A stretch of DNA of 37,768 nt from positions 1 to 37,768 of the forward strand of contig JAGVYH010000048.1 in NCBI GenBank assembly GCA_018303325.1, in the 5' to 3' direction. This document shows positions 10 through 10,995 of the stretch, in pieces. Made by a program: the position numbers and the translations under genes. The notes beneath the pieces were generated by a model, which made no database searches, was not told the DNA's origin, and saw nothing but the letters and a program-made list of their open reading frames with translations. The DNA is from Candidatus Woesearchaeota archaeon (GTDB lineage: Archaea; Nanobdellota; Nanobdellia; Woesearchaeales; DSVV01). Position 1 is the first letter of the stretch, and the number at the start of each line of letters is the position of its first letter.

Positions 10-942
10 TTAAACCAATAATTCTAAAACCCTTTTTATCTCTTCAAGGGTATGATTGAGTTGTGTTGCAGCATTTTTATAATCTTCTTCTTTTATGCTT
101 TCAATGGAAGTTCTGATATCTTCTCTCGATATAAATAGGATTATTTTCTCCTTATATAAATGGGGTTTTTCATCTGAATACCAAAGCAATGCGAATATAT
201 CACATAAATCTTTTACACGTTTATGCCCTTTATCCCTTTCTTTCAATGCAGTTATCTTTGTAGCGAGTAATAACTCTACTTTTGGCAGCCACAATTTTTT
301 ATTAAAGTTTTCAAGTTCATTTCTATACTTTTTTTGTTCAAACACAAATCTTAATAATGGCAAACTAATTGGTTGAAAATGGAAAACTTTCTTAAATGTT
401 GAAGGAACAAAATCTACCAGTAAATCCACATATAACGGAAAAATAAACGGTGACGAAACATTTCTGCTTTGTTCTATCTCTTCTTCACTTTCAGTATGAA
501 TCTCTTTAAGCAGCCTGAAAGAGATTGATTACAAACTGGGTCTTATACCCCGCAGCTTGCTGCGATAGCGCGCCCAGTTTGTAATCTTAAAAATGCCGGT
601 CACGAAGTGACAAATTCGCCGTATACCCCACAGCTTGCTGTGGTTGGGTAGGCGAATTTGAGGCATTTTTTTTGATTTAAATCTTAATTCTTTCTCTAAT
701 ATCTCTATAGATTTAGCTAAAGAAGAATTTTTCATTTGCTCTATTGTTGCATTCTTGTCAAGATGAAAACCTAAATCAATATCCCTGCTTCCTAAGTAAG
801 GTCTTCCTTGGGCTTTTTGAAAACTCTTGTTTACATGGAAAAATACTGCCCAACCACCAATAATACAAATTGGTTCTTCAAGTGCTGAAATTACTTTTTG
901 CAAGTATTTATACGAAGTTCTCGTTTCAAATTCAGGATACAT
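10..942 (-). pseudogene. AbiEii-like nucleotidyltransferase toxin, split by a palindromic insertion
   Basis: Two minus-strand ORFs (529-942 and the GTG-started 10-429) lie in the same frame and read as one protein. The N-terminal half has the nucleotidyltransferase signature IIGGWAVFF followed by GSRDIDLGF. The C-terminal half carries a K..ALK.R.KGHKRVKDLCDIF helix typical of AbiEii/DUF1814-like proteins. Between them a 147-nt stretch (a palindromic element plus one 6-bp repeat) ends in an in-frame TAA at 529-531. Removing exactly one TTGATT repeat plus the element restores the frame (..RFKS-ISFRLLKEIH..) and gives about 261 aa, a normal family length. The start ATG (942) lies 1 nt after the stop of the AbiEi-like gene, so the two form an operon. 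AbiEii proteins transfer nucleotides and are toxins of type IV systems. Here the toxin is probably inactive unless the insert is removed or bypassed. Confidence 0.8.
527..671. repeat. Double-hairpin element 1 inside abiEii-like gene
   Basis: The first hairpin (527-586) has perfect 14-bp arms, GATTACAAACTGGG and its complement. The second (589-670) has two stacked stems, AAAAATGCC/GGCATTTTT and AAATTCGCC/GGCGAATTT, with an extra GTCAC-GAA-GTGAC stem. Both loops contain the same core TATACCCC plus a small stem (CGCAG/CTGCG in one, CACAG/CTGTG in the other), so the loops are related though the arms are not. A TTGATT direct repeat (525-530 and 672-677) flanks the unit like a target duplication. 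Confidence 0.85.
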
Positions 943-943
943 T

Positions 944-1516
944 TTACTTCACCTTTTTAATAAGCATTTCAGCAGCTTCTTCAGCTGGTCCTCCTTCTGT
1001 AAACAGATCAATAATCAACTGTGGTATCCCAACAATAAACAAACCATTTACTTTCCTTTTTCCAAACCCAACATGTTTATCTGTAATAATAATCCTGAAG
1101 TTTCCTCTGCCATAAAGCCCGTCCTTAGTTAGAAGTTTATGCCAAGTTTCCAAATCATTCTCTTCAATATAAATATCTGTTCGTGTTGGAAACAAATATC
1201 TTTGCACAAGATTTTCAGCTTGGTACGTGGTTAAAGCATATTCTAATTTTACTTTTTTAAGAAAAATTATTGGCTCTTTAACCATATATTCCCTAATCTT
1301 TTTTGGTTTTTTATGGAGATTTAGCCAATATTTAATAAGATTCTTAGCATTGATTACTTTAGTGCCCTTTACAAGCTTTTTTCTTTCTAATTCCCTTAAA
1401 AATAAAATCACCCATTGACGTGTGCAATTGGCTAGCTTAGAAATCTTATTCTTGCTCAATTGCTTTCTTTCAGTAAGCATTACTCTAAGTATACATTCCT
1501 TTTTTTGGCCGCGCAT
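944..1516 (-). CDS. AbiEi-like winged-helix antitoxin/transcriptional regulator
   Basis: This 190-aa protein starts with a winged helix-turn-helix (about residues 10-55: KNKISKLANCTRQWVILFLREL). The body matches AbiEi-like antitoxins: YLFPTRTDIYI, then W..LL...GLYGRGNFRI, ending with PQLIIDLFTEGGPAEEAAEML. Such proteins neutralise the partner nucleotidyltransferase and repress their own promoter. The partner gene begins 1 nt downstream on the same strand. A TATA-like sequence about 25 nt before the ATG suggests a leaderless mRNA. The gene looks intact although its partner is split, consistent with an antitoxin kept after toxin loss. Confidence 0.75.
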   Translation of the reverse strand: MRGQKKECILRVMLTERKQLSKNKISKLANCTRQWVILFLRELERKKLVKGTKVINAKNLIKYWLNLHKKPKKIREYMVKEPIIFLKKVKLEYALTTYQAENLVQRYLFPTRTDIYIEENDLETWHKLLTKDGLYGRGNFRIIITDKHVGFGKRKVNGLFIVGIPQLIIDLFTEGGPAEEAAEMLIKKVK

Positions 1517-2162: not shown

Positions 2163-2765
2163 TTGAGTTTAAATGAGCTTTTAAAAACCAATAAAGATGC
2201 AAGAAAAATATTCGGCAGGAAAGAGATAGAAATCATACTAAAACAAATAAATGGGATTTCTTTAACACAATCTGAAAAGAACAGATTGTCTAGGGATATA
2301 AGGCCAAAATTTAGATTTATAAAAGAAGTTTCTCTGTTTCAGGATGAGTTTGAGCTAAAAAAAGATTCTGCTGCCACTAAGATTATTAAAAGAATAGTTA
2401 ATCTGATATTACAGGACGAATTAGCAAATAATGTTAAAGCAATATTGTTGTTTGGCTCTCATGTTCTGGGTAATGTAACGCCCAGATCTGATATAGATAT
2501 CACAGTTATCTTTACAAAAATATCCTTAAAAAAAGCTACAAAATTTAGAATAAGGATTTCCAGAGAGTTCTCTAAAAAAGTAGATATACAGGTATTTAAT
2601 GTTCTGCCGCAAAAAATCAAAAGAGAAATTGCAAAAAAATATAATATTCTTTACAAAACACCTGATTTTGATAATGCCAACTTTTTTATATCTTATCTGA
2701 AAGAAGATGATTATTTTATAAGAAAACATAAATTTTTTGGTGATAATTATGGCAAAAATAAATGA
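2163..2765 (+). CDS. MntA-like nucleotidyltransferase (MNT antitoxin of a HEPN/MNT pair)
   Basis: The 200-aa protein contains the minimal nucleotidyltransferase signature FGSHVLGNVTPRSDIDITVIF (about residues 98-118), in which GS and DxD bind nucleotide and metal. A helical N-terminal extension of about 60 residues precedes it. In HepT/MntA systems this enzyme AMPylates the HEPN toxin to block it. The start is TTG, since an in-frame stop lies just upstream and no suitable ATG follows before the conserved core. Its end overlaps the next reading frame (ATG at 2749) by 17 nt, the usual coupling of MNT and HEPN genes. All motif residues are present, so it may still be active while its partner is broken. 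Confidence 0.78.
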   Translation: MSLNELLKTNKDARKIFGRKEIEIILKQINGISLTQSEKNRLSRDIRPKFRFIKEVSLFQDEFELKKDSAATKIIKRIVNLILQDELANNVKAILLFGSHVLGNVTPRSDIDITVIFTKISLKKATKFRIRISREFSKKVDIQVFNVLPQKIKREIAKKYNILYKTPDFDNANFFISYLKEDDYFIRKHKFFGDNYGKNK

Positions 2766-3369
2766 CAAGATTACACAAATTATTCAATATTTAAAAGAGC
2801 TTAGCGAAATTGCGCCTTCTGATATTGAAGAATACAAATCTATAGGAAATAACATTAATAATCAGATAAAATAAAACAATAGTAATGTTATTTCCTAATA
2901 AGCAAATCACTTTTTGTAAGTAAGCAAACTTACGAAGATTAAAGTGATTTGCTATAGAGGGTTTTGAATAACCTATACAAATAGTCAAAACCCTTAATAG
3001 AACCGCTTTGAAAAATATCATAAAAAAGAGTTTTTCAAAGCTCTCTATAATCTAGAAAAAAAAGCAGCATGTGAACGGTATATTGAGAAGATTGTAGAAG
3101 CAATAACTGATTTGGCTTTTTTAATAATAAAATTAAAAAGACTGAAAATACCAGAAGATGATATTGATGCATTTAACATTCTTAGTGAGAATAAAATTAT
3201 TAGCTCAAGTTTAGCCTCAAAACTTAAAAATGCAAAAGGAATGAGAAATATCATCTCACATCAGTATGGCTCTATTGATGATAACATTATTTTTGAGTCA
3301 ATTACTGAAGAATTGGATAAGAATGTAAATGAGTTTATTAAAGTCATTAAGAAAATTAAAGGAGTATAA
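2749..3369 (+). pseudogene. HepT-like HEPN toxin split by an array of four hairpins
   Basis: The 5' part (ATG 2749) encodes MAKINDKITQIIQYLKELSE.. and reaches a TAA at 2872 inside a repeat. The 3' part in the same phase (about 3043-3369) continues LEKKAACERYIEKIVEAITD and carries the HEPN RNase signature RNIISHQY (RxxxxH), then GSIDD. Without the insert of about 200 nt the protein would be about 140 aa, the normal HepT size, with EEYKS joining LYNLEKKAACERY. HEPN toxins cleave or inactivate RNA, and the MntA-like gene directly upstream is the expected antitoxin. At least four in-frame stops (2872, 2965, 2995, 2998) lie in the inserted DNA. The locus is therefore a disrupted toxin unless the insert is removed or bypassed. 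Confidence 0.78.
2844..3041. repeat. Four tandem hairpins (two double-hairpin elements) inside hepT-like gene
   Basis: The hairpins are 2844-2896 (14-bp arms, AGGAAATAACATTA), 2901-2953 (13-bp arms, AGCAAATCACTTT), 2958-2994 (10-bp arms, AGGGTTTTGA) and 3005-3041 (11-bp arms, GCTTTGAAAAA). All arms are perfectly complementary, yet no two share sequence. CTATA occurs at 2840, 2952 and 3045, which divides the array into two units of about 112 and 93 bp and looks like repeated use of the same target. Confidence 0.85.
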
Positions 3370-3532: not shown

Positions 3533-3626
3533 ATATACTAAAAGTGCAAAATAATCGAACATTATTTTGCACTTTTGTATATACAAAAGTGATTAATTTG
3601 TTCGAAAATTAATCACTTTTAGTATA
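3533..3626 (+). repeat. 94-bp double-hairpin element, copy A
   Basis: It contains two hairpins: AAAAGTGCAAAATAAT (16 bp, 5-nt loop) and AAAAGTGATTAATTT (15 bp, 6-nt loop). They are joined by the palindrome TTTTGTATATACAAAA and bounded by TATACTAAAAG-type ends. The whole 94 bp reappears as an exact reverse complement at 10902-10995. It ends about 55 bp before the first large surface-protein gene. Confidence 0.9.
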
Positions 3627-10869: not shown

Positions 10870-10901
10870 TTTGTATGCCTGTTTTATAGTCTTGCTCTTT
10901 A

Positions 10902-10995
10902 TATACTAAAAGTGATTAATTTTCGAACAAATTAATCACTTTTGTATATACAAAAGTGCAAAATAATGTTCGATTATTTTGCACTTTTAGTATAT
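10902..10995 (-). repeat. 94-bp double-hairpin element, copy B (exact inverted copy)
   Basis: All 94 bases equal the reverse complement of 3533-3626, and identity stops abruptly on both sides. With copy A it brackets 7.3 kb that includes two surface-protein genes and the Bro-N gene. Confidence 0.92.

Follow-up and report, generated by a model that had tools for sequence, protein, structure and literature searches.

An in-phase 147-nt double-hairpin insertion in a woesearchaeal AbiEii-like gene, very probably a transposase-less IS200/IS605-type element inserted without target duplication

The window analysed here is the whole 37,768-nt stretch of a Candidatus Woesearchaeota archaeon contig. 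Near its beginning, an AbiEii-like gene on the - strand (window 942 to 10) is interrupted by 147 nt, with the phase kept. AbiEii is the toxin of a type IV toxin-antitoxin system. The gene directly upstream is a probable AbiEi-type antitoxin partner, as suggested by gene order and fold hints. On the - strand, the reading frame runs from the ATG at 942 through the insert to a TAA at 529–531. The + strand reads GAAAGAGATTGATT (517–530), followed by 147 nt finishing in GCATTTTTTTTGATT (677), and then TAAATC. As TTGATT is present at both 525–530 and 672–677, the net insertion comprises 531–677, which corresponds to 49 codons. The first-pass annotation of this DNA had described a 147-nt split that keeps the phase and carries a single TAA at its very end, which the TTGATT coordinates and the frame confirm, and the TCA codons that it had placed on both sides are present in the sequence. 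The coordinates of all features are collected in Table 1.

Table 1. Features of the interrupted AbiEii-like gene, the insert, and the neighbouring gene (window coordinates).
Feature	Position	Strand	Basis
Non-autonomous IS200/IS605-type element (PATE/MITE-like, double-hairpin), 147 nt; very probable assignment	531–677	+	Edges from intact homologs and copy family; right-end core common to Y1-transposase elements
TTGATT on the left, host DNA serving as insertion target (T(T)NATT class)	525–530	+	Left flanks of other copies
TTGATT closing the element on the right, predicted RE cleavage sequence	672–677	+	Constant in listed own-genome copies regardless of left flank
Left-end hairpin; outer stem ACAAACTGGG (531–540)/CCCAGTTTGT (573–582), pairing reaches 527–586; apical core TATACCCCGCAGCTTGCTG at 544–562	531–582	+	Fold
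Right-end hairpin; outer stem 589–597/662–670, inner stem 611–620/651–660; apical core TATACCCCACAGCTTGCTG at 622–640	589–670	+	Fold; core ATACCCCRCAGCTTGCTGYGRTTGGG directly behind Y1 transposase genes in other genomes
N-terminal part of AbiEii-like nucleotidyltransferase	678–942	-	ATG at 942; motif GSRDIDLGF; 79% identity to N part of intact L048 and L049
C-terminal part of AbiEii-like gene, open up to its own stop	10–530	-	Pfam AbiEii PF08843, E=0.0012, 19.3 bits, below the curated cut-off of 22.5; 50–62% identity to intact homologs, no frameshift
Sole in-frame stop, TAA, created across the left junction	529–531	-	Reading frame
Upstream gene, 190 aa, winged-helix-like N-terminus	944–1516	-	Weak Pfam HTH matches only, E 0.003–0.007, below cut-off

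Uninterrupted homologs of the gene are encoded in three related genomes, namely L048 (G041), L049 (G003), and L050 (G066). Across the split point these homologs read FKS-VSFRLLKEIHTE or FKP-LSFRLVKEIHTE, and the joint KFKS/VSFRLLKEIHTE corresponds to RFKS and ISFRLLKEIHTE in the interrupted gene. The two halves were searched and aligned one at a time and never joined. In the alignment to L048, the N part covers residues 22–112 and the C part residues 112–282, both gapless. Because both halves align to intact homologs in this manner, no residue has been gained or lost at the split. The earlier claim that the gene has normal length once the insert is removed therefore holds, as all three intact homologs align across the split without any residue change. 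The N half shares 79, 79, and 63% identity with L048, L049, and L050, respectively, and the C half 62, 56, and 50%. Among the intact homologs themselves, the corresponding values are 81, 66, and 63% for the N half and 66, 54, and 53% for the C half. Comparison with these three homologs revealed no clear decay or frameshift in either half of the interrupted gene. Since the identities of the halves are similar to those among intact homologs and the frame is undamaged, the insertion is probably recent, as judged from sequence divergence. The function of the toxin has presumably been lost through it.

The insert folds into two hairpins, the apices of which are nearly alike (TATACCCC(G/A)CAGCTTGCTG). 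The fold is far more stable than that of shuffled sequences, with z = -8.4 for DNA and z = -8.0 for RNA, and none of 200 shuffles was as stable. This stability and its occurrence as a multicopy repeat demonstrate that the insert is not a chance sequence. Its terminal inverted repeat amounts to no more than about 4 nt, and the ORF list contains no transposase gene, nor any other gene, within the 147 nt. The insert belongs to a dispersed double-hairpin repeat that is matched 28 times within the host genome; of 98 related genomes, the own genome excluded, 18 contain matches as well. The own-genome copies considered here are the loci returned by the searches. Most copies are intergenic and vary freely in length, and some are located within other repeats. 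The left-end stems include unrelated sequences such as ACAAACTGGG, ATTTAGTTTG, TGTTTGTTG, CCTCAAATG, and TCTTAACTGG, among others, each with an exact complement 42–62 nt away, so it is the hairpin and not the stem sequence that is conserved. Likewise, the stem sequence differs between species and complementarity is retained. Several own-genome elements (L009, L010, L006, and L008) have small hairpin cassettes, e.g., AACAAAATGCTTTGCATTTTGTGTAC, inserted into their loops at TATAC, each cassette apparently terminating in GTAC. A pattern search of the own genome with a core one base too long returned mainly another repeat, AAACCCCACAGCTCTGCTG, and its result was excluded.

A scan of 84,980 genomes yielded the right-end core ATACCCCRCAGCTTGCTGYGRTTGGG in no fewer than 117 stretches. 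Among the matches listed, the stretches span Woese-, Pace-, Nano-, Aenigm-, and Micrarchaeota, Nanohaloarchaea, Methanoperedens, Thermoplasmatota, cyanobacteria, Bacteroidetes, and others; Woesearchaeota and further small archaea contribute many of them. A Y1-transposase-like ORF ends 0–5 nt upstream of the core in 14 of the 121 cores among the matches listed; 26 further cores lie too close to a contig end for this check, and several appear similar by eye. The majority of the listed core sites show no detected adjacent Y1 gene, and many of them are located at contig ends. A complete element is present in Synechocystis salina (L136), consisting of a core, a Y1_Tnp gene (Pfam, E=1.1e-35), a second core, and a TTCATT right end. 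L112 is a woesearchaeal example of a Y1 element linked to the core. The right ends of elements in relatives are mostly TT(C/G/T)ATT. By sequence, the right-end core of the insert is identical to the one in elements with a Y1 gene, and host-type elements have the same two ends as Y1-bearing elements with the gene absent. The core directly follows Y1 stop codons and, in at least one complete element, occurs on the left as well; the most fitting interpretation of the insert is therefore an IS200/IS605 element that lacks the transposase. The IS200/IS605 kind belongs to the single-strand, HUH-Y1 type. In viruses the hairpin core ATACCCCRCAGCTTGCTGYG is rare, with only five stretches (L188–L192) among 2.9 million IMG/VR viral contigs.

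Multicopy short palindromes of this type resemble REP doublets, and the RAYT enzymes are Y1 relatives of TnpA_IS200 (PMC6006769), so an origin as a REP/REPIN-type element that depends on a domesticated RAYT transposase instead of an IS200-type TnpA has to be weighed. This origin is nevertheless very unlikely. The Y1 proteins linked to the core carry YIQEQ or YVRKQ, motifs of the Y-x-x-x-Q type as in the IS200 subclass, which is reported to be the only subclass seen in archaea (PMC6006769). Furthermore, the element has sharp ends with a fixed TTNATT terminus, and no RAYT-class gene flanked by these hairpins was seen.

The host assembly, which is 92% complete, yielded no autonomous element with matching ends. 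The sole near-complete Y1 gene of the host (C5:923, L069) has different ends, and its stop follows right after YIQE, where related proteins continue. A second host Y1 gene is a remnant. The host's own Y1 genes are ruled out as the mover, as their ends differ from those of the insert. The Y1 loci (PF01797) of close relatives were likewise rejected as the source, since the loci that were read fall into different subfamilies and end differently. In the closest relatives, no Y1 gene that was read carries the exact pair of insert ends, the nearest being that of G028 (L222). TnpA proteins of the L112 type are encoded in the relatives G028, G026, G034, and G010, where the hairpins are either the same or variants. 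The cognate TnpA may have been lost from the host or may lie in an unassembled part of its genome. A Y1 transposase remnant (L070, G000:C77:16683-16796) is broken by a hairpin repeat of the TATACTAAA type.

The first-pass annotation had taken the two TTGATT copies for a clean 6-bp target duplication. In the own-genome family, the right end is TTGATT in all listed copies with both ends. The left flank is usually TTAATT, with AATT in 9 of 11 copies and TRATT in all 11; the search motif itself contained ATT, so only the two bases before ATT are independent. For the families of two relatives, flank sequence was not used as a search motif. In the first, a Woesearchaeota family of 16 copies, the left flank is TT(A/G)ATT in 14 of the 15 readable cases and the right end is always TTTATT, with random bases beyond. 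In the second, comprising nine copies, the left flank is TT(G/T)ATT and the right end TTGATT in eight copies and TTCATT in the remaining one. Because the right end stays fixed while the left flank varies, the right TTGATT is not a copy of the target. A filled and an empty site are available within the same genome: at L014, another repeat harbours the element, with AAAAGTGATTAATT on one side and TGTTCGAAAATTAATC on the other, and the empty counterpart (window 3585–3620, reverse complement) is an uninterrupted host hairpin, AAAAGTGATTAATTTGTTCGAAAATTAATC, without duplication. Since the empty-site repeat reads straight through, nothing was duplicated at L014. The TTGATT pair consists of the landing target and the element's own end, and the target happened to equal the end at this locus. 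Insertion 3' of a fixed short target without duplication is seen in the TTNATT left flanks, the constant right end, and the L014 pair. A fixed right end, a target kept on the left, and the lack of duplication constitute the IS200/IS605 pattern.

A double-strand (DDE) transposase that mobilised a conventional MITE and generated a real 6-bp TTGATT target-site duplication would explain why the insert and the copies L018 and L031 each have TTGATT at both flanks. However, the constancy of the right end against a varying left flank, within and between families, the terminal inverted repeat of no more than about 4 nt, and the empty site render this explanation highly improbable for the insert and refute it for the family. 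A flanking duplication that varies with the target, as required for a canonical MITE, was not found in the own-genome family or in those of the two relatives. Flank statistics and the empty site thus rule out a target-site duplication. Of the snapshot of insertion and duplication proposed earlier, the clean and probably recent mobile-element insertion stands and the target duplication falls away.

The insert is very probably a non-autonomous miniature IS200/IS605 element, inserted by a Y1 TnpA acting in trans without copying of the target. Only the left-end and right-end hairpins are left of such an element, and the transposase that would separate them is missing. By analogy with ISDra2 and IS608 (PMC2806898, PMC5934647), a Y1 TnpA provided in trans would bind these hairpins on single-stranded DNA, join the flanks, and excise the copy as a single-stranded circle. 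The circle would then go in 3' of the TTGATT target in the AbiEii-like gene, leaving the target uncopied. The target would remain on the left, and the element's own TTGATT would arrive with the right end; the apparent duplication would be due to both reading TTGATT. The TAA formed at the junction would truncate the toxin. Mobilisation would accordingly depend on a Y1 TnpA and a single-strand mechanism, and it may be reversible: if a suitable TnpA is present, precise excision could restore the gene in the DNA.

Three own-genome copies with both ends are located in coding sequence, with net lengths of 147 nt (the AbiEii-like gene), 284 nt (the L006/L011 ORF), and 107 nt (the unnamed ORF L013), and only the first is divisible by three. 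As one in three coding copies is a multiple of three, the in-frame length needs nothing beyond chance; it is an accident that matches the chance expectation of one third. The L006/L011 copy (G000:C50:9160-9447) is a composite with extra nested hairpins that breaks its ORF. The downstream part of this ORF is similar to a PIN-type toxin by eye, not by profile, and on that basis it would be the third toxin-like gene hit in the genome.

A coding insertion similar to the Rickettsia palindromic elements, read through or tolerated, would add a peptide to a working toxin. A length that is a multiple of three, a single stop, and two well-conserved halves without a frameshift would fit such an origin. 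Yet this copy contains a stop, the other two coding copies (284 and 107 nt net) shift the frame, and the copies are mostly intergenic with freely varying lengths. This origin is highly improbable, and an in-frame protein element is ruled out by just one of three coding copies being in frame. RNA-level removal by splicing, as a small intron or in the manner of an IStron, or ribosomes that hop over a bypass closed by a hairpin, would restore the full toxin and could draw on the strong RNA hairpins and the identical TCA codons at both ends, but such a restoration is extremely improbable, as no intron, ribozyme, or other RNA family was found in the window at the Rfam threshold, the 147 nt contain no catalytic core, the same element occurs in intergenic DNA and inside other repeats, and the codons are identical because target and element end are similar. 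An RNA family or intron was therefore rejected, and the stop readthrough, RNA excision, and ribosome hopping once suggested for this locus are without positive evidence, because the window lacks such a family and the frame is not kept across copies. Precise DNA-level excision by a Y1 transposase would be the only plausible route back to a full toxin.

Other hairpin repeats are present in the window as well. At 2749–3369 of the window, a HepT-like toxin gene, adjoining a nucleotidyltransferase gene, is broken by a four-hairpin array (2838–3055; DNA fold z = -11.2). The array consists of two double-hairpin repeats with 39 genome matches, one of which has TATAGAG/CTCTATA ends. A third double-hairpin repeat (window 3534–3626 and 10896–10995) has the inverted ends TATACTAAAAG...CTTTTAGTATA and occurs in 43-, 87-, and 126-nt forms. 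With about 40 or more genome copies (82 matches, both palindrome strands counted), the third repeat serves as a landing site for the family of the 147-nt element. The host genome appears to carry a heavy load of double-hairpin elements that are mutually nested and disrupt toxin genes. Precise excision of miniature elements catalysed by a Y1 transposase might turn toxin-antitoxin genes back on in part of the population. Such a reversible switch has very little probability; if it existed, it would operate against a background of several hairpin-repeat families inserted in toxin genes of this genome. More generally, an apparently perfect target-site duplication can arise from a system that makes none. 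Miniature IS200/IS605 elements with one near-identical right-end core appear to extend over Woesearchaeota, other small archaea, methanogen relatives, cyanobacteria, and Bacteroidetes.

The interrupted gene resembles AbiEii in being a nucleotidyltransferase gene beside a winged-helix-like gene, and its C part gives a PF08843 match that stays under the Pfam curated cut-off; the gene would represent a diverged archaeal group. Rickettsia palindromic elements, which are found in frame in many genes (PMC10969869), are also palindromic repeats of about 150 nt within genes; in contrast, the family of the insert does not keep the frame across copies and is mostly intergenic. ISDra2 enters DNA 3' of TTGAT, and the gene is restored upon excision of ISDra2 (PMC2806898). 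For IS608, the target is kept in the left flank and the donor is sealed precisely (PMC5934647). Both share with the insert subterminal hairpins, a fixed short target on the left (TTGAT for ISDra2), and the lack of target duplication. They carry tnpA/tnpB and are known to excise precisely, whereas the insert has no gene, a T(T)NATT target, and a predicted excision only. By definition, PATEs (palindrome-associated transposable elements) have palindromes related to IS605-type elements close to their termini, lack terminal inverted repeats and target duplication, and are too short to encode a transposase (PMC3119063). Those of Haloquadratum walsbyi likewise occur in many copies in an archaeal host, and small repeats insert into their palindromes (PMC3119063), which resembles the nesting of small hairpins in the host element. 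The insert differs in its sequence family, in its Woesearchaeota-group host, and in its ends, which are lengthened into long stems closing nearly all 147 nt. Nevertheless, it conforms to the published definition of a PATE.
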